Below the pieces are notes generated by a model that saw nothing but the letters and a program-made list of their open reading frames with translations, was not told the origin of the DNA and made no database searches. From the IMG/VR virus record IMGVR_UViG_3300011445_000013, positions 1 to 39,370 of that record: a DNA stretch of 39,370 nt; one strand, written 5' to 3'. The stretch's first letter is position 1, and the number at the start of each line of letters is the position of its first letter. The position numbers and the translations under genes were made by a program. Below, one piece after another: positions 1 through 39,370 of the stretch. Source of the stretch: a virus.

Positions 1-123
1 CAAGGTTTTCGCACTGAATCCAGTCGCTTCACTGCATTCCGCGAGGGTTAATCGCGTCCCGTTATACTCAATAACCACAATGTGGGTTTTCGTCCGCCGT
101 CGAACGGTCTTAACTGTGAGCGC
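1..123. repeat. Terminal direct repeat (left copy), circular join
   Basis: These 123 bases are identical to 39248-39370. A gene reads unbroken across the join when the copies are merged, so the repeat marks a circular assembly (or circularly permuted DNA) and not a biological terminal repeat. The unique genome length is 39,247 bp. Confidence 0.95.
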
Positions 124-7602: not shown

Positions 7603-9015
7603 ATGAGCGTTGCCGACGAACCCGCCCTGGTCGTTTTTTTGCGGCTCTACCGGCGCGATCCGTGCCTGTTCGTGCAGGAAGTGCTGGGCGCCATACCGGA
7701 TCCGGCGCAGGCCGATGTATTGAATGCGGTGGCTTCGGGGGAGAGAAGGATTTCGGTAAGAAGCGGCCATGGGGTGGGGAAGAGCACGGTGGCGAGCTGG
7801 CTGATGATCTGGTTTCTGATCACGAAGTTTCCCTCGAAGACCGTAGTCACCGCGCCGACGACGGCGCAGTTGTTCGATGCCTTGTTCGCCGAGTTGAAGC
7901 GTTGGCTGGGGAAGTTGCCGCTGCCGTTGCAGGAGCTGCTGGAGGTGAAGGCGGAAAGGATTGAGTTGAAAGCGGCGCCCGCGGAGGGGTTTATCACGGC
8001 CCGGACGAGCCGGGCCGAGCAACCGGAGGCGTTGCAGGGCGTACATAGCGAGCATGTGCTGCTGATCGCCGACGAGGCCTCGGGGGTGCCCGAGAGCGTG
8101 TTCGAAGCGGCGAGCGGGAGTATGAGCGGGCATCACGCGGTGACGCTGTTGCTGGGCAATCCGGTCCGGTCGAGCGGTTTTTTTTATGACACGCACAACA
8201 AGTTGAGCCCGCATTGGAAGACGTTCGTGGTGCCCTGCCATGCTTCGCCGCGGGTGAGCAAAGAGTATATCGAGGAGATGGCGACCCGCTATGGGGTGGA
8301 TTCCAATGCCTACCGGATCCGGGTGCTGGGGGAGTTTCCGCGGGCCGATGACGATACGTTGATCCCAATGGAGTTAATTGAACTGGCGACGACCCGTGAC
8401 GTGTTGCCGGTAGCGGGGGCGCCGCTGGTCTGGGGGTTGGATATCGCGCGGTACGGGCCCGATAGTACAGTGCTGCTGCAAAGAAGGGGGAATGCGGTGA
8501 CGTCCATTACCAGGTGGAGCCGGACGGACACGATGGAGACGGTGGGGCGGGTGAAGCTGGCCTGGGACACGTTGTTGCCGGGGGAGCGGCCGGAAGAGAT
8601 ACTGGCCGATGTGATCGGGATCGGGGCCGGGGTGGTGGACCGGCTGCGGGAGTTGCGGTTGCCGGTGAGGGGGGTGAATGTAGGGGAAGCGCCGAGTATT
8701 AAGGGCGGGCATCACAATTTGCGGGCCGAGCTGTGGACGGAGATGAAGGCCTGGTTTGAAAGAAGGGATTGCCGGATCCCGGCGAACGATTATTTGATCA
8801 GCGAACTGGCGGCCTGCAAATTTCATATCACCAGTTGCGGGAAAATTCAGATCGAATCGAAGGACGATGCGCGGCGCCGGGGACTCCCCTCGCCGGACAC
8901 CGCCGATGCGCTGATGCTGACGTTCGCGGCCACGGCGGCGACGGCCATTCACGGGTGGTCGCATACCTCCCCGTGGGCCAAGCCGTTGAAGCGGAATCAG
9001 TTAGGGATTGTCTAG
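7603..9015 (+). CDS. terL: Terminase large subunit (470 aa)
   Basis: The DNA-packaging motor: an ATPase that pumps DNA through the portal and a nuclease that cuts it. The N-terminal ATPase has Walker A SGHGVGKST (residues 54-62), Walker B VLLIADE (152-158) and a coupling motif TLLLGNP (181-187). The C-terminal RNase H-like nuclease has acidic sites at D280 (GLDIARYG), D336 (ADVIGIG) and D432/D435 (SPDTADAL). Length and motif order are those of a full-length large terminase. The ATG at 7603 starts directly after the promoter-like box, without a ribosome site. It opens the rightward late operon; the small subunit lies apart on the other strand. Confidence 0.95.
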   Translation: MSVADEPALVVFLRLYRRDPCLFVQEVLGAIPDPAQADVLNAVASGERRISVRSGHGVGKSTVASWLMIWFLITKFPSKTVVTAPTTAQLFDALFAELKRWLGKLPLPLQELLEVKAERIELKAAPAEGFITARTSRAEQPEALQGVHSEHVLLIADEASGVPESVFEAASGSMSGHHAVTLLLGNPVRSSGFFYDTHNKLSPHWKTFVVPCHASPRVSKEYIEEMATRYGVDSNAYRIRVLGEFPRADDDTLIPMELIELATTRDVLPVAGAPLVWGLDIARYGPDSTVLLQRRGNAVTSITRWSRTDTMETVGRVKLAWDTLLPGERPEEILADVIGIGAGVVDRLRELRLPVRGVNVGEAPSIKGGHHNLRAELWTEMKAWFERRDCRIPANDYLISELAACKFHITSCGKIQIESKDDARRRGLPSPDTADALMLTFAATAATAIHGWSHTSPWAKPLKRNQLGIV

Positions 9016-9031
9016 CGCGTGGCGCGTGTGG

Positions 9032-9044
9032 TATACAAGCGCCA
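9032..9044 (+). promoter_or_regulatory. Leaderless-type start element of the portal gene
   Basis: TATACA (9032-9037) is 7 nt before the ATG at 9045, with CGCCAATG at the start and no ribosome site. It parallels the terL and 90-aa gene starts and suggests a second late promoter just after terL. Confidence 0.35.
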
Positions 9045-11384
9045 ATGGCCGAATATCCGAATGCTAACCGGTTAGGGCTGGAGATTCCTCCCGGATTCTC
9101 CTATCCTAACCGCTTTGGCGAAGGGCCGGCGGCCGGGGATGCGATGGATTCGACGGCAGCGAACGGTATGTCGGAAGACGACCTGGAAGCCTGGATCCGC
9201 GGGGAGATCGACGAAGCCGAGCAGGTGGTGGGAGCCATCCAGGACGATCGGATAAAAGCGGGCCGCTACTACGACGGCGAGAAATTCGGGAATGAAGAAG
9301 CCGGTCGCAGCCAGGTCATATCACGCGACGTCCACGACACCGTGCATGCGCTACTGCCGAGCCTGATTCGCATATTTTTCGGGGCCGAGCATGTGGCCGA
9401 ATTCGTCCCACGCGGGCCGGAGGACGTGCCGGTCGCCGAGCAGATGACCGACTACGTGGATTACGTTTTCAAGAACGACAATCCCGGTTTTCTGATCCTG
9501 CATTCGGTCTTCAAAGACGCGCTGATTAAGGCCCAGGGCGTGGCGCAGTGGCGCTGGGACGATTCCTCGGAGACATTCGAGGACCGCTATACGGGCCTGG
9601 ACATGGAAGCGGCCATGCTGGTGGTCGAGGACGCGAAACAAATCGGGGCGAAGGTCACCCTAGGGGACTCCGACGCCTTCGACCCCGCCACCGGCAAGGC
9701 CCTGATCGATATGACGGTGAAGCGGGAGCGCCACCGGGCGCAGATCCGCGTCGAGGCCGTGCCGCCCGAGGAGTTTCTCATCAACCAGACGGCGCGGGAT
9801 ATTGACAGCGCGCGATTAGTGGCCCGGCGCTGGTACAAGACGGTCAGCGACCTGGTGGGTATGGGTTATGACCGGGAAGAGATGGAGGATGAGGCCGGCG
9901 CCGACTGGTTCTCCACTACGAGCCAGGAAGCCCAGGAGCGGTTTCCCAACACCAGCCCGTTTCCCGACGATCCGAGCGATAAGGCGAACCGCCCGGTGCT
10001 GTATGTGGAGGCCTTTGCGACGGTCGATTTCGATGGCGACGGGATCGCCGAGCTACGGCAGATCTGCTGTGTGGGGAAGGGTTACAAGGTGGTGCGGAAC
10101 GAGCCGGTCGATGAGCGGCCCTTCGCGTTGTTCTGCCCTGATCCGGTGCCCCATACGATCTTTGGGAATTCCACCGCCGACCAGACGATGGACATCCAGC
10201 TCGTGAAGAGCTCGATCCTGCGGAAGATGCTCGATTCCCTCGCCCAGTCGATCACGCCGCGGACGGGCGTGGTCGAGGGCCAGGTCAACATCGAGGACGT
10301 GCTCAATAACGAGAACGGCGCCATTATCCGCATGCGCGCGCCGGGGATGGTGCAGCCGTTCAATCTGCCCTATGTCGGCGCCGAAGCCCATCCGATGTTG
10401 GATTACTGGGACCGGGTGAAGGAGTCGCGGACGGGAATCTCTAAGGCCTCGGCCGGATTGGATGCCGATGCGCTGCAGAGTACGACCCGGGCGGCGGTGG
10501 CGGCGACGGTAAATGCGGCGCACCAGCACATCGAAATGATCGCCCGCATCTTCGCCGAGACCGGCATGAAGCGCATGATGCAGGGGATTTTGAAGCTGGC
10601 CTGCCGGCATCAGGATAAAGCGCGGGTGATCCGCCTCCGCGGCAAGTGGGTGCAAGTCTCGCCGGCCTCCTGGAACGCCGACGCCGACGTGACGGTGAAT
10701 GTGGCGGTCGGGAGCGCGACCGAGGAGGAGCGGCAGAAGGCGCTGCAGCAGATCGCCATGCGGCAGGAGCAGGTCCTGCAGCAATACGGGCCGCAAAATC
10801 CGCTGGTGACGGTGGCGCAGTACCGGCACACGCTGAGCAAAATTATCGAGGGCGCCGGTTTCCGGGATCCGGCCCAGTTCCTGCAGGAGGTGCCGCCTAA
10901 TTGGCAGCCGCCGCCGCCCCAGCAGAAGGAGACGCCCGAGCAGATCACCGCCAAGATGCTGGCCGAAGTCCAGGTGCAGCAGATCCGCGCCGACATCGAG
11001 ATGAAAGCGGCCGAGTTGCAGTTGAAGCGCGAGGAGATGCTGCTCGAAAACGACCGGGAGCGGGACAAGAACGAAGCCGACATCCTCCTTCGTACCCGCG
11101 AACTCGAACTCAAGTATCAAGCCGAAGTGGACGTGGCGGCGATCAAGGCCATGCTCGAGCGGGAGCGGATGGCTCTTCCGCCGCAGCCCCCGGCACCGGT
11201 AGCAGGAGAGACACTGCCGCCCGCGCCGCCTCCGGCACCGGAGCCGCCATCTCCTCCATCTGGACCGGCTCCGGCGCCTGACGGGGGAATAGCGCCGCCC
11301 ATAGAAGCGCCCGCGGAACCACCTGCTGGCGCGCTTGCCGCCATGGACCAACCGCTGCCGCCCGAGGAGGATAGGAATGCCTAA
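9045..11384 (+). CDS. Portal protein, P22-type (779 aa)
   Basis: Dodecameric ring at the capsid vertex through which DNA is packaged and ejected. The long length and the conserved core (DGDGIAELRQICCVGKGY; FALFCPDPVPHTIFGNSTAD; DIQLVKSSILRKMLDSLAQS; YWDRVKESRTGISKASAGLD) are those of P22-like podovirus portals. The C-terminal third is a long charged coiled coil (about residues 630-720) followed by a Pro/Ala-rich tail. ATG 9045 is taken as the start because of the promoter-like box before it; a later ATG at 9144 is possible, because residues 1-33 contain two copies of the CTAACCG palindrome and may be regulatory DNA. The next gene overlaps its stop by 8 bp. Confidence 0.9.
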   Translation: MAEYPNANRLGLEIPPGFSYPNRFGEGPAAGDAMDSTAANGMSEDDLEAWIRGEIDEAEQVVGAIQDDRIKAGRYYDGEKFGNEEAGRSQVISRDVHDTVHALLPSLIRIFFGAEHVAEFVPRGPEDVPVAEQMTDYVDYVFKNDNPGFLILHSVFKDALIKAQGVAQWRWDDSSETFEDRYTGLDMEAAMLVVEDAKQIGAKVTLGDSDAFDPATGKALIDMTVKRERHRAQIRVEAVPPEEFLINQTARDIDSARLVARRWYKTVSDLVGMGYDREEMEDEAGADWFSTTSQEAQERFPNTSPFPDDPSDKANRPVLYVEAFATVDFDGDGIAELRQICCVGKGYKVVRNEPVDERPFALFCPDPVPHTIFGNSTADQTMDIQLVKSSILRKMLDSLAQSITPRTGVVEGQVNIEDVLNNENGAIIRMRAPGMVQPFNLPYVGAEAHPMLDYWDRVKESRTGISKASAGLDADALQSTTRAAVAATVNAAHQHIEMIARIFAETGMKRMMQGILKLACRHQDKARVIRLRGKWVQVSPASWNADADVTVNVAVGSATEEERQKALQQIAMRQEQVLQQYGPQNPLVTVAQYRHTLSKIIEGAGFRDPAQFLQEVPPNWQPPPPQQKETPEQITAKMLAEVQVQQIRADIEMKAAELQLKREEMLLENDRERDKNEADILLRTRELELKYQAEVDVAAIKAMLERERMALPPQPPAPVAGETLPPAPPPAPEPPSPPSGPAPAPDGGIAPPIEAPAEPPAGALAAMDQPLPPEEDRNA
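9064..9075. promoter_or_regulatory. Operator-like palindrome CTAACCGGTTAG
   Basis: A perfect 12-bp palindrome just inside the portal reading frame, the most symmetrical copy of the repeated site. Confidence 0.5.
9106..9117. promoter_or_regulatory. Operator-like site CTAACCGCTTTG
   Basis: An 11-of-12 match, 42 bp (about four helical turns) after the 9064 copy. Both copies fall in the same reading frame and encode NRLG/NRFG, so a protein-level repeat is an alternative explanation. Confidence 0.4.
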
Positions 11385-26375: not shown

Positions 26376-26402
26376 GTTTGCACCTGCGTCCGCCTATGTT
26401 TT
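26364..26402 (+). terminator. Possible terminator between convergent late and excisionase genes
   Basis: GGACGC (26364-26369) pairs with GCGTCC (26386-26391), with an inner AGGT/ACCT stem and a 4-nt bulge, followed by TATGTTTT. It would end the late transcript at the excisionase stop. The bulge makes it weaker than a classical terminator. Confidence 0.4.
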
Positions 26403-26633
26403 AGCGGCTTCGATAAACTTCTCCAGGTCCCGGCGGCGAAACCGTGGGCGGCTGTCGATCTTTACTGTCGGCAGTCGATTGGTGTTCATAAAGCGGCGCA
26501 TCTGTTCCACGCTGCACGCCAGGAACGTCGCGGCCTCTTCCAGCGTGTAGAGGTCCTTGGCCGGGATGCCCTTCTTAATTTCGTCGATGATGATCTGGGC
26601 GATCTCCCTGCCGAATGCTTCTGCTCCGCTCAT
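26394..26633 (-). CDS. xis: Excisionase-family DNA-binding protein (79 aa)
   Basis: A 79-aa protein with the winged helix-turn-helix of the excisionase/MerR-like family: LYTLEEAATFLACSVEQMRR (about residues 28-47), a wing NRLPTVKIDSRPRFRRRDLE (about 52-71) and a final helix KFIEAA. Such proteins bend DNA at attP and turn integrase towards excision, or act as small regulators. It has a GGGAG ribosome site and its start lies 22 bp from the first integrase arm-type repeat. Read leftward after int and attP, it would be the last gene of the long leftward operon. The excision role is inferred from position. Confidence 0.75.
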   Translation of the reverse strand: MSGAEAFGREIAQIIIDEIKKGIPAKDLYTLEEAATFLACSVEQMRRFMNTNRLPTVKIDSRPRFRRRDLEKFIEAAKT

Positions 26634-26654: not shown

Positions 26655-26686
26655 TTCCGCAGTTCTTCCGCAGTTATTCCGCAATT
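26655..26686. repeat. Integrase arm-type sites, three 11-bp tandem repeats
   Basis: TTCCGCAGTT at 26655-26664 and 26666-26675 and TTCCGCAATT at 26677-26686 repeat every 11 bp, one helical turn. The same word recurs on the other side of the attP core. This is the usual layout of arm sites bound by the N-terminal domain of tyrosine integrases. Confidence 0.7.
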
Positions 26687-26690
26687 AAGG

Positions 26691-26719
26691 GAGCAATCGC
26701 CCTGTAGAGGCGATTGCTC
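26691..26719. other. 11-bp perfect hairpin in the attP region
   Basis: GAGCAATCGCC/GGCGATTGCTC with a 7-nt loop, between the arm sites and the core. It has no strong U tract on either side. It may be a weak terminator between int and xis or a site for a bending protein. Confidence 0.5.
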
Positions 26720-26726
26720 GTACTAT

Positions 26727-26736
26727 TCTTGCGGAA
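26727..26736 (-). repeat. Inverted arm-type site TTCCGCAAGA
   Basis: Read leftward this matches the arm-type word at eight of ten positions, in the opposite orientation to the other copies, between the hairpin and the core. Confidence 0.35.
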
Positions 26737-26776
26737 GAGGGGTTGTGATATAACCCCAATAGAATCAACGTTTTTG

Positions 26777-26824
26777 TGGTGCGCCCGACAAGATTCGAAC
26801 TTGTGACCTCTGGCTTCGGAGGCC
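26777..26824 (-). other. attP: attP core: 3' half of tRNA-Arg(CCG)
   Basis: Read leftward it gives anticodon loop CTCCGAA (anticodon CCG), the 3' anticodon strand GCCAG, variable loop AGGTC, a perfect T arm (ACAAG/CTTGT around TTCGAAT), acceptor strand CGGGCGC, discriminator A and CCA. The 5' anticodon strand fits for only three bases (GGC), so homology to the host gene must end there. Integration would rebuild the host tRNA, and the crossover should lie in or near the anticodon loop, as for other tRNA-using tyrosine integrases. Confidence 0.85.
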
Positions 26825-26874
26825 TCAGTTCTTTGTCTTTAACTGATTGATTATAAAGGTGTATAGTTTTTCAC

Positions 26875-26895
26875 TTCCGCAGTTATTCCGCAGTT
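26875..26895. repeat. Integrase arm-type sites on the int side
   Basis: TTCCGCAGTT at 26875-26884 and again at 26886-26895, with 11-bp periodicity; the second overlaps the integrase stop codon. They mirror the three copies at 26655-26686 across the core. Confidence 0.7.
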
Positions 26896-30250: not shown

Positions 30251-30428
30251 TGCAGGCCTCCAATCTCTTGACCATGTTCTCGGCGCGTCGCCACTCCACT
30301 TGGGCCGCCCGAACAATCTTCGCGTCAGGGTGGTTTTCGATCACGATTTCCAAGTGGTTTTGCAGATAGCCCAGCAGCTTGACGATCTGCGCCAGGTCCC
30401 GCTTCGTGAATGCGGTTAAGTTACCCAC
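30225..30428 (-). CDS. Small hypothetical protein (67 aa)
   Basis: A 67-aa basic helical protein (MGNLTAFTKRDLAQIVKLLG, then RAAQVEWRRAENMVKRLEAC). It overlaps both neighbours (8 bp upstream, 26 bp into the ParB-like gene), the usual packing of this operon. No family recognised. Confidence 0.6.
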   Translation of the reverse strand: MGNLTAFTKRDLAQIVKLLGYLQNHLEIVIENHPDAKIVRAAQVEWRRAENMVKRLEACNASTRNTD

Positions 30429-30636
30429 GGCTCACCGCCTTCTGTTTCCGGAAGTCCTCGGCCTTTTCGCATGTGATGAAGTGATTCACCCCGTCGATCG
30501 TGTACGGCGCCAGCCTTCCGTTGTGGTGCCGGACGAAGGCCAGTTGCACGCCGCAGGCCTTGCACGGCCGGACCTCCTCGGCGATGAGCATTAACAGCGT
30601 CGCCATGCGTTTCTCGATGGGAGGAAGATCAGCCAT
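30421..30636 (-). CDS. Zinc-binding small protein (71 aa)
   Basis: A 71-aa protein with a clear small metal-binding core: CKACGVQLAFVRHHNGRLAP (from about residue 25) and then HFITC, giving CxxC, HH and a final H/C. This pattern (CxxC, a basic loop and P-Y-T-I-D-G) recurs in phage and actinobacterial short zinc proteins. The ATG at 30636 was chosen since it overlaps the preceding stop by 8 bp. Role unknown; DNA or RNA contact is plausible. Confidence 0.7.
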   Translation of the reverse strand: MADLPPIEKRMATLLMLIAEEVRPCKACGVQLAFVRHHNGRLAPYTIDGVNHFITCEKAEDFRKQKAVSRG

Positions 30637-31075
30637 TGGGCACGCCGCCTTTCGCCAGCGCTTCCACAGCCCGCTCCGTCTTCTCGCGCAATGACACCTT
30701 CGGGCCTCGCTTTCTGGCGTCTTCGATGTTTTCAAATAGCCGCTCCAGTTCCACTGGATGCAAGTTGGCGAAGCGTGCGCCGAGCGGTTCATCGCGGCTT
30801 GGAAAACGGAAATAGAAATACCGGAACGTCGGATCGAACTCGTCATCCTCATCCCCTGCATAGAGCGGGTGCGTCCGGATCTTCTCGAAGAGTTCCTGAT
30901 ACTCGCCGCCCCAGTTGCCGGTGCCTACCCGCGCCAGGACGTACATTCTTCCGTTATCGAAGCCCGCGTCCCGGAACCGTCCGAACTCTTCCGTCGGCAC
31001 TCCCAGCAGGCAGAGCACGAAGGGGGCGAACGGGTCGTAGCCGTGGATTAAATTGTAGAGGCTCATTTGTCCCAT
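30629..31075 (-). CDS. Conserved hypothetical phage protein (148 aa)
   Basis: A 148-aa protein with a pattern I recognise as widespread among phages and mobile elements: YNLIHGYDPFAPFVLCLLGV (residues about 6-25), FGRFRDAGF, RVGTGNWGGEYQELFEKIRT, then HPLYAGDEDDEFDPTFRYFY. No activity is established for the family. It overlaps both neighbours (13 and 8 bp). Confidence 0.75.
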   Translation of the reverse strand: MGQMSLYNLIHGYDPFAPFVLCLLGVPTEEFGRFRDAGFDNGRMYVLARVGTGNWGGEYQELFEKIRTHPLYAGDEDDEFDPTFRYFYFRFPSRDEPLGARFANLHPVELERLFENIEDARKRGPKVSLREKTERAVEALAKGGVPNG

Positions 31076-36379: not shown

Positions 36380-36997
36380 TTATTGCACTGCCTCCGTGGT
36401 GATTGTCGATGGGTGCGCCTTCCGCGGACGGCCCCGCTTTTTGGGTGGCGGTGCGGCCGGGGCTGGCTCTCGCGGCGGGTCAAGATCCTCCGGATCCTCG
36501 CCCCCATCGGTGTCCTCCGGATCGTCCCGATCCTGCTCCTCGAGCGTCGGCTGCAGCTTGCCTTGCTCGGGCAGCCGGTGGAGGTGCATCTGGCCGTCGG
36601 CCTGCCCCATAAGGCCAAAGAACTCCGTGATGTCCGACCAGGCGGTGGAGAGCAGCCGGAACCGGAGCTGCGTCTGGATCGAGCCGTCGGTGTCGCCTTT
36701 CGACCGGGACAGTTCGAAGGCATCGGCGGTGGTGGCCGGGCACTCCAGCCCCTCGGCTCCCGATCCGTTCAGCCGGAGCGCTACTCGCTCGAGATACAAA
36801 TCCCCGGTCAGTTTCGTCGTCCCCTCCAGGCCGGAGATCAAATGGCCGCCGGAGTAGATTTCCCAGCCCATCTCCCGCGCCAGTTCGCTGGTGATATCGC
36901 AGGCGACATGCGCGCGGACGATACAGTTTCCTTCGCTTACCCGCAGGTCCACATGCCGGATCTGGGCGCCTCGCAGGATCAGTCTTCGACTAGGCAA
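36380..36997 (-). CDS. AT-hook-containing hypothetical protein (205 aa)
   Basis: A 205-aa protein: a beta-rich N-terminal domain (RLILRGAQIRHVDLRVSEGN; AREMGWEIYSGGHLISGLEG), then a helical part, an acidic linker (DRDDPEDTDGGEDPEDLDPP) and PPPKKRGRPRKAH near the C terminus, an AT-hook (core RGRPRK) that inserts in AT-rich minor grooves. It is placed with exonuclease, nuclease and replication genes, so a DNA-metabolism role is likely. It overlaps the exonuclease gene by 8 bp. Confidence 0.65.
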   Translation of the reverse strand: MPSRRLILRGAQIRHVDLRVSEGNCIVRAHVACDITSELAREMGWEIYSGGHLISGLEGTTKLTGDLYLERVALRLNGSGAEGLECPATTADAFELSRSKGDTDGSIQTQLRFRLLSTAWSDITEFFGLMGQADGQMHLHRLPEQGKLQPTLEEQDRDDPEDTDGGEDPEDLDPPREPAPAAPPPKKRGRPRKAHPSTITTEAVQ

Positions 36998-37793: not shown

Positions 37794-39185
37794 TTATTCC
37801 CCTCCGGCGGCGGCGTTCGGATCGATGTCCAGTTGCGGCGCATCGTCGACACGCGCCGCGATGATCTGAAACCCGCTGGCCGCGCAGGCCGCTTTGAAGT
37901 CCGCCCAATGCGCGCTATCGAGCGCCTCGGTATTATCGAGCACCATAAGACCCAGCTCGCCGGCGCCCTGGGCGGCGATCCGCAGGGCCAGCTCGTACTG
38001 CCGCTGCGTGTTGACCGCGTCGAACGGGATCGGCGCTTCGAAGCCTTCGGGCTGGTACATCACCTCGCCGTCCTGAGTGGAGAGCCCCGGGATCGGCAGC
38101 GACCGCAGGGCCTTCTCTTTCGCCGCGTCGATTGCCTCGATCGCCGCCGAATAGACATCCGCCTCGGCCTGGGCGGATTTCAGATCCTGCTGATACTGCT
38201 TGATGGTCGCGGCGCTTTGGGCTTGCTGGGCAAAGTGGCGGGCCTTCTCCCGGGCCACGGAAACCTGCGCGGATGCGCCGGAGACCGCCTCCCGGGCCGA
38301 CTCTATCTCGGCGTCCAGAGAATGGTAGAGCGTGTGGCGCGCGGCCTTGCCCTGGTCGTGCACCACCGTTCGGCGTTTGGCGGCCTCGACGCGGATCTTG
38401 TCAATCTCGACTGCCTCCCAGCGGGATACCTCGGCCACGTCGGCGGCCAGAGCTTTATCAAAGTCGGCCACGGCCGTGTCGCGGTTCTGCTCGATCTCCT
38501 TGAGCGCCGCCGTCTGCTCTTCCAACCCGTCGAGGGCCTCCCGCACCACCGCGTCGGCGTCTCCCTCCGGCTTCCAGTCCCCGGGAAGCGTTTTCCGCAG
38601 CGCGTCGATACCGCCCTCCTGGATCTTGATCGACTTATTGACCGCGGCGCGGTCGTCGTAGAGGCGCTTGCGCAGGCCGTTCAAGGCGGCGATATCGAAC
38701 TGACTACCGCTGATCAGCCGCGCCACCTGTGGAGCCAGGCGCTTCTGATCGCACGCCGCGACAATCTGCTCGCGCGTTACCGCCACCGGCATGACTTTCG
38801 ATAGGTAGTCGGCCCGCTCTTTATGCGAGGCGGCGACGAACGCCAGCGGATCGAAGGCGAAGCCCTTGGCCAGGGTGGCGATGAAAGTGGCCGGAGCGGG
38901 GATAACCTCGCCGGCCGCATTCTTCACCACCGTCGTCGCGCTCTTCGGCGTGATGGTCTTCTCGATCGTGGTGCCATCGTCGAGCGTCAAGAGGACTACG
39001 CCCTTCTTGGCGCCCTGGCGGATCATGGAGGCGTCATGCCCGCCCTCGAAAGGCTCCCTGACAGCGTCCAGTAAGGAAGTCTTGCCGCTACCATTGGGGC
39101 CACGCGCGACGGTCAAAGCGCCGGCGCGAAACTGCGCATGCTCGATGCCGCGAATATTTTCGATAGATACTGATTTCAACTGCAT
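37794..39185 (-). CDS. SbcC/RecF-type ATPase (463 aa)
   Basis: An SMC-like ATPase: IENIRGIEHAQFRAGALTVA, Walker A GPNGSGKTS (29-37), a long coiled coil (about 170-350), then NTQRQYELALRIAAQGAGEL and Walker B LGLMVLDNTE (411-420). It is a short, phage-type relative of SbcC/Rad50/RecF proteins. It may pair with the nearby exonuclease or 352-aa protein in recombination. It starts at ATG 39185, overlapping the HNH-like stop by 10 bp. Confidence 0.88.
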   Translation of the reverse strand: MQLKSVSIENIRGIEHAQFRAGALTVARGPNGSGKTSLLDAVREPFEGGHDASMIRQGAKKGVVLLTLDDGTTIEKTITPKSATTVVKNAAGEVIPAPATFIATLAKGFAFDPLAFVAASHKERADYLSKVMPVAVTREQIVAACDQKRLAPQVARLISGSQFDIAALNGLRKRLYDDRAAVNKSIKIQEGGIDALRKTLPGDWKPEGDADAVVREALDGLEEQTAALKEIEQNRDTAVADFDKALAADVAEVSRWEAVEIDKIRVEAAKRRTVVHDQGKAARHTLYHSLDAEIESAREAVSGASAQVSVAREKARHFAQQAQSAATIKQYQQDLKSAQAEADVYSAAIEAIDAAKEKALRSLPIPGLSTQDGEVMYQPEGFEAPIPFDAVNTQRQYELALRIAAQGAGELGLMVLDNTEALDSAHWADFKAACAASGFQIIAARVDDAPQLDIDPNAAAGGE

Positions 39186-39370
39186 CTAAGACTCCTCTTT
39201 CGCGTCATTATTTCGGTCGCGGTCCACCCACGAGATAGCCTTGCGTGCAAGGTTTTCGCACTGAATCCAGTCGCTTCACTGCATTCCGCGAGGGTTAATC
39301 GCGTCCCGTTATACTCAATAACCACAATGTGGGTTTTCGTCCGCCGTCGAACGGTCTTAACTGTGAGCGC
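39176..39370 (-). CDS. HNH-like protein, 3' part (repeats the left-end gene)
   Basis: Codons for the C-terminal 64 residues of the HNH-like gene; the first 41 lie in the repeated 123 bases. The unique last 23 residues read HARLSRGWTATEIMTRKRSL and RCS. The TGA at 39176 overlaps the ATPase start. Together with 1-549 the gene is 206 codons. Confidence 0.75.
   Translation of the reverse strand, partial: ALTVKTVRRRTKTHIVVIEYNGTRLTLAECSEATGFSAKTLHARLSRGWTATEIMTRKRSLRCS
39248..39370. repeat. Terminal direct repeat (right copy)
   Basis: Identical to 1-123; marks the circular join. Confidence 0.95.

Follow-up and report, generated by a model that had tools for sequence, protein, structure and literature searches.

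The window analyzed here, i.e., the whole 39,370-base stretch of DNA (61.5% G+C overall), is a complete, non-integrated phage genome with a 123-bp direct terminal repeat at both ends and an SU10-type portal gene (8769-11384). Between its genes for a tyrosine integrase (int) and a small, excisionase-like (xis-like) HTH_17 protein, a non-coding stretch contains the 3' part of a tRNA-Arg(CCG) gene and five copies of one short word. These features, with the terminal repeats, are as follows.

1..123, + strand: direct terminal repeat, copy 1
26394..26633, - strand: xis-like small HTH_17 protein, 79 aa (ORF; Pfam HTH_17, E 9.4e-10)
26655..26664, + strand: arm word 1, xis side, exact TTCCGCAGTT
26666..26675, + strand: arm word 2, xis side, one 11-bp step along, exact TTCCGCAGTT
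26677..26686, + strand: arm word 3, xis side, after a further 11 bp, TTCCGCAATT, one mismatch
26691..26719, - strand: hairpin separating the core from the far arms, with a perfect 11-bp stem (12 bp as RNA)
26730..26738, - strand: partial inverted arm-like 9-mer, weak, a 9-nt match to TCTTCCGCA
26739..26757, - strand: second small hairpin, GGGGTT/AACCCC, from RNA folding
26777..26823, - strand: putative attP core, tRNA-Arg(CCG) from G30 in the anticodon stem to CCA, 47/47 with L002:4620-4666
26815..26821, - strand: anticodon loop CTCCGAA, presumed 7-bp overlap for strand exchange
26824..26874, no strand: int-side spacer, A+T-rich (29% G+C)
26875..26884, + strand: arm word 4, int side, exact TTCCGCAGTT
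26886..26895, + strand: arm word 5, int side, exact TTCCGCAGTT, sharing two bases with the int stop codon
26894..28102, - strand: tyrosine integrase, 402 aa (PF00589, E 7.1e-21; phrog_1, 1.6e-61)
39248..39370, + strand: direct terminal repeat, copy 2

As in lambda/L5-type systems, an integrase gene, here with a PF00589 match above the cut-off, lies beside the site. Tyrosine integrases have the catalytic motif R...HxxR...H...Y, which we take to be represented by R230, H346, R349, H372 and Y381. The single-sequence structure model of the protein was poor (pLDDT 37.6), with three strands and one helix at residues 27-81, and no arm-domain Pfam match was obtained; a model of this quality suggests, at most, an N-terminal arm-binding domain. 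No close relatives of the integrase were found in IMG/VR, and all 1,229 integrase-relative records from annotated phages showed less than 60% identity (approximately 25-28% among the matches listed); none of the relatives found had a near-identical N-terminus. The HTH_17 protein matched a PHROG excisionase/regulator family (6.8e-07), its excisionase-family matches being weak. Its start codon lies 21 bp from the nearest word of the far arm group, and it may act as the directionality factor.

The five words all have the same orientation, follow an 11-bp repeat unit, TTCCGCAGTTM, and keep the 11-bp phase both on the xis side (three words) and on the int side (two). This is the arrangement given in a preliminary description of the site, except that the third xis-side word, taken there for an exact copy, has one mismatch; the inverted copy also reported there amounts to a 9-nt match (TCTTCCGCA versus 26730-26738), with 3 of 10 positions differing from the arm word. 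Exact TTCCGCAGTT occurs four times in the 39,370-base window, always at this site, compared to approximately 0.08 occurrences expected for both strands together. Among 1,957 stretches of 241 bp sampled along the window (step 20, unaligned to the site), none contained a 10-mer four times and 12, some of which may overlap the site, contained one three times. Four copies of a 10-mer arose in 1 of 2,000 Markov sequences built from the region. Measured from the center of the anticodon loop, the word centers lie at 61.5 and 72.5 bp on the int side and at 136.5 to 158.5 bp on the xis side. Repeated arm-type sites are therefore present on either side of the core, as in lambda/L5-type attachment sites, and the phased words are probably held by the N-terminal domain of the integrase.

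The tRNA sequence on the - strand runs from the anticodon region to CCA, as the preliminary description had proposed. ARAGORN found no complete tRNA anywhere in the window, which is what one expects of an attP. The exact 41-bp core was found at one place in 84,980 species genomes, a Candidatus Sulfopaludibacter MAG (Acidobacteriota, Bryobacterales), and ARAGORN called a complete tRNA-Arg(CCG) gene at that locus. Phage and MAG tRNA are identical at all 47 bp, and the match breaks off sharply at the anticodon stem on one side and at CCA on the other; the identity thus runs from the anticodon loop and stem to the tRNA 3' end, as in an anticodon-loop (A) site. The shared 3' end had been put at 48 bp, which the host gene corrects to 47 bp (26777-26823). 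Similarly, three bases of the 5' anticodon strand had been assigned to the fit; G30 and C31 belong to the shared 47 bp, whereas G29 pairs only with C41 of the phage. The 41-bp stretch was present within 3 mismatches in 16 of 257 Bryobacterales genomes, in a search that left two anticodon-stem bases free, and within 2 mismatches in 2 of the 396 genomes of an even phylum sample. The exact attB, known once and in a MAG, points to a host in the Bryobacterales (Acidobacteriota), Sulfopaludibacter-like by this sequence match. The host range could therefore be predicted as claimed, down to the order, through one exact attB in 84,980 genomes. Further tRNA-Arg(CCG) fragments lacking the 5' part were seen at L127 (G152:C37:13338), L128 (G183:C73:28216) and L129 (G233:C481:1569), those of G152 and G233 adjoining integrases. 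The tRNA-Arg(CCG) gene is thus targeted repeatedly in the Bryobacterales.

The 11-bp hairpin noted earlier in the xis-side spacer (40% G+C versus 61.5% for the whole window) was confirmed as a perfect inverted repeat (26691-26701/26709-26719) that folds as a 12-bp RNA hairpin. Its stability corresponded to a z of about -5 (90/91-nt segment), and none of 200 and none of 300 shuffled sequences was as stable. A T run is missing from this hairpin, and a consensus scan called no terminator in it; it likely acts behind the rebuilt tRNA as a terminator or insulator. Both hairpins would probably stop or insulate transcription of that tRNA, because the host's own downstream sequence would now lie ~39 kb away. 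Hairpins behind the tRNA in relatives gave z values of -3.9 (L008, strong), -2.4 (G099, modest) and 0.22 (L015, not significant).

The nearest relative of the integrase (37% identity, E 6e-64) is encoded in a Bryobacterales genome, G099 (locus L006). The two integrases are sisters in the tree (95/66), and together with that of a further locus, L008, they form a group with support of 100/98. The G099 locus contains the following features.

374700-374745: 5'-less (displaced) tRNA-Arg(TCT) fragment
374853-376031: int
411975-412051: intact tRNA-Arg(TCT)

The intact tRNA and the displaced fragment have 45 bp in common, which begin with C32, the base that opens the anticodon loop. Pairs of TGCCAGC in 11-bp phase occur at 374816/374827 and 411886/411897, one pair per end, and no other such pair was found in positions 368000-446356 of the contig (~78 kb). 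This ~37-kb prophage has the geometry predicted for integration: at one end stand the intact tRNA and an arm pair, with two hairpins between them, as in the window, and at the other end follow int, the second arm pair and the displaced fragment of the tRNA. Hence, the integrated form, with an intact tRNA and a displaced 3' fragment, is seen in the sister. Sister integrase, gene order, phased arms at each end and hairpins from tRNA to arms are common to both, whereas the G099 prophage differs in its target, tRNA-Arg(TCT), in its arm word, GCTGGCA, in its structural genes, which are unmatched in the window, and in its first ORF beyond the arms, which encodes a CxxC-rich protein and not an HTH_17 protein. 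In addition to the integrase, three early-region ORFs of the window have counterparts in G099 (30421-30861, 52%; 36380-36997, 48%; 37794-39185, 26%). The ORF at 37794-39185 (- strand) has an SMC/RecF-like ATPase N-terminus, with weak Pfam matches below the cut-off; the 26% identity is that of its counterpart in the G099 prophage. An integrated relative at a different site, which had been named in advance as evidence against the proposal, does exist here in the literal sense, but the proposal is not refuted, because the G099 integrase is just 37% identical and has its own matching core. The L008 locus is an uncut attP like that of the window, with CGCTTGCA pairs in 11-bp phase flanking a tRNA fragment and a hairpin between the core and the far arms; we read this fragment as Thr, from its TGT anticodon.

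The site is thus very probably (roughly 0.93) a lambda/L5-type attP, still intact, of a temperate phage in its free form. What the sequence shows is the identity of the core, the repeats, the order of the genes, the hairpins and the sister in its integrated form, while the roles of the integrase in arm binding and catalysis, of the HTH protein and of the hairpins are proposed. A complete attP with a tRNA core and arms on both sides, as first described, remains the best reading, since the host tRNA exists and the sister shows the integrated form. The arm words and the core would together form the substrate of a bivalent integrase, with the N-terminal domain on the arms and the core-binding and catalytic domains acting at the tRNA core. 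Because the left edge of the core lies at the anticodon stem, strand exchange is placed inside the anticodon loop CTCCGAA, where the host 5' part would be joined to the 47-bp 3' part of the phage, so that the tRNA-Arg(CCG) gene would stay whole. Along the tRNA strand, a lysogen should then read tRNA 5' part, phage core, hairpins, arms 3-1 and xis, and at the other end int, arms 5-4 and the displaced host 3' fragment. Since int and the tRNA are on one strand, the rebuilt tRNA would stand at the end with xis, and int would adjoin the displaced fragment at a distance of 39 kb, an order also seen in G099. In the genomes and contigs searched, this phage did not turn up in integrated form. Neither its core nor its arm pair was found in any other viral contig of IMG/VR, and a search for DNA similarity gave none.

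At E<=1e-30, relatives of the integrase were present in 11 of 257 Bryobacterales genomes (counted from the table) and in 2 of ~294 others (Fisher p 0.005). The latter are the rest of a 297-genome phylum sample, from which G001 and G192, themselves Bryobacterales, were removed and in which G190 was allowed for because it belongs to the 396-genome phylum sample. At the default cut-off, 255 of the 257 genomes had integrase matches, which is uninformative because tyrosine recombinases are everywhere. Among 30 relatives fetched from the order, 25 had a tRNA, or the 3' fragment of one, close to the end of int, and two of these, L015 and L021, likewise target tRNA-Arg(CCG). The core lay on the int strand in 11 of these 25 and on the opposite strand in 14 (counted from the tables), a split by which a single core orientation across the integrase clade was rejected. 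Orientation is clustered and yet of several origins, because the integrase tree (L006-L035) needs five changes. Of the 30 relatives, 20 had phased 7-mers (10-12 bp) inside the 510 bp that surround the int stop; control stretches had them in 37 of 214 and 70 of 357 cases. The arm words vary from one relative to the next, and those of mycobacteriophages have likewise been published as differing between elements.

These data bear on an unlikely alternative, in which the attP is genuine but the host lies outside the Bryobacterales and the single exact match is coincidental. Conserved tRNA 3' ends, the single matching genome and one further genome with two mismatches from the even phylum sample would allow for it. 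However, 84,980 species yielded just one exact match, the integrase relatives are enriched in the Bryobacterales, and three early-region ORFs of the window recur in the sister prophage, which lies in a Bryobacterales genome.

There is a slim chance that the repeats are operator or iteron-like sites of the xis-like HTH protein and that the core alone is the attachment site, as the far words lie in the xis leader, the nearest 21 bp before its start codon. Published layouts name such repeats arm-type sites (PMC3706429, PMC3203893). Moreover, the one word occurs on both sides of the core, and G099, with no HTH protein beyond its arms, again has phased words on both sides. Although phages do carry tRNA genes and pseudogenes, we give almost no credence to the tRNA piece being a captured, decaying phage tRNA gene and no attachment core, given that its identity to the host gene stops sharply at the anticodon stem and CCA, that it lies between int and xis within phased repeats, and that the sister's integrated form has the equivalent piece as a junction.

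Relatives by structural genes were also considered. A portal search gave 35 loci, and 16 of these portal-relative records were searched with the integrase, of which 4 matched, weakly. The closest phage by structural genes was G258 (portal, 75%). G258 corresponds to IMGVR_UViG_3300020020_000093 (L106-L108), and it has DNA stretches 68-79% identical to the window, mostly in structural genes. Its tyrosine integrase (L106:15313-16854) is unrelated to that of the window, and it has its own phased word, GCACACCA, with six copies in 11-12-bp phase in ~250 bp beyond int. The integration module has thus been exchanged. That structural-gene relatives share the same att site was ruled out, G258 carrying another integrase; since this integrase is unrelated, structural kinship is no test of the attachment site.

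The host gene itself has an unusual feature. In the Sulfopaludibacter MAG, the anticodon stem of tRNA-Arg(CCG) (L002:4620-4696 / L113:12620-12696) is CTTGC/GCCAG, with T29 and C41 unpaired. C41 was found only in the MAG among the 16 near-match genomes, and the phage has C41 too; the phage flank carries G29, which makes the phage core symmetric (GGC CTCCGAA GCC). The first 30 tRNA bases of G138 or G139 followed by the phage core gave the MAG tRNA letter for letter, and the same splice with the 5' part of G041 or G051 was one base off. In its letters, such a splice is what a lysogen junction would read. A prophage now at the Sulfopaludibacter site was ruled out, since the downstream side is chromosomal. 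This side matches a related genome, G088, from 15 bp beyond the tRNA, and the matching sequence in G088, with the neighboring gene, lies 6.5 kb from the tRNA. The synteny breakpoint (L131:7693-14264 in G088 versus L113:12605-12620) involves 6.5 kb that are present in G088 and absent in G001. Because no displaced tRNA fragment was found in the 6.5-kb stretch of G088, the difference between the two genomes may equally stem from insertion in G088 or from deletion in the MAG. Tentatively, and at somewhat less than even odds, the MAG tRNA may be a recombination scar, its 3' part left by a prophage of this phage or a close relative that was lost by some route besides faithful excision. Both C41 and the empty site would be explained if a former lysogen had shed its prophage through homologous exchange inside the core. 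A host mutation to C41 that the phage copied later explains these observations less well, and C41 may also be an error in the MAG. If the scar is true, lysogeny rewrote a core host gene, leaving a weakened anticodon stem.

The layout of the window's site is already known from mycobacteriophages, and the mechanism is a familiar one. As in the Cluster J phages Omega and BAKA (tRNA-Leu), the attP lies 3' of int and its left edge is in the anticodon loop. These phages have a 44-bp common core ~100 bp beyond int, flanked on either side by paired direct arm-type repeats of 10 bp; they differ from the window in the phylum of the host, the tRNA and the arm word, and, unlike in the window, arm-like inverted sites also occur at the int start (PMC3706429). 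As described in PMC3203893, Pixie (K3) resembles the window in its 47-bp core at tRNA-Lys and its direct arm sites, two and three, but has a sixth, inverted arm site, while CrimD (K1) resembles it in a stem-loop terminator between the core and the far arm sites but has its core in tmRNA and its two arm pairs mutually inverted. Islander lists 2083 islands with anticodon-centered (A) sites, about half of its set, in which, as here, a tRNA 3' part restores the gene and crossover falls in the anticodon loop (PMC4383910); those are islands, whereas the window is the free, uncut phage form. The symmetry by which an anticodon stem-loop matches a core site has been reviewed (PMC8371274). Proviruses of Acidobacteriota, including Bryobacteraceae ones (PMC11924767), and prophages of this phylum (PMC5900883) have been reported; in the passages of these two papers considered here, we saw no att sites worked out.

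The integration system is thus a textbook one, and the host assignment is useful, not surprising. Through it, an uncultured phage gains a testable host together with an exact attB, and may supply a tool for integration, in an order of soil Acidobacteriota for which few temperate phages are known. As the Bryobacterales integrases combine varied arm words and tRNA targets with one architecture, they may allow the rules of arm-word recognition to be learned.
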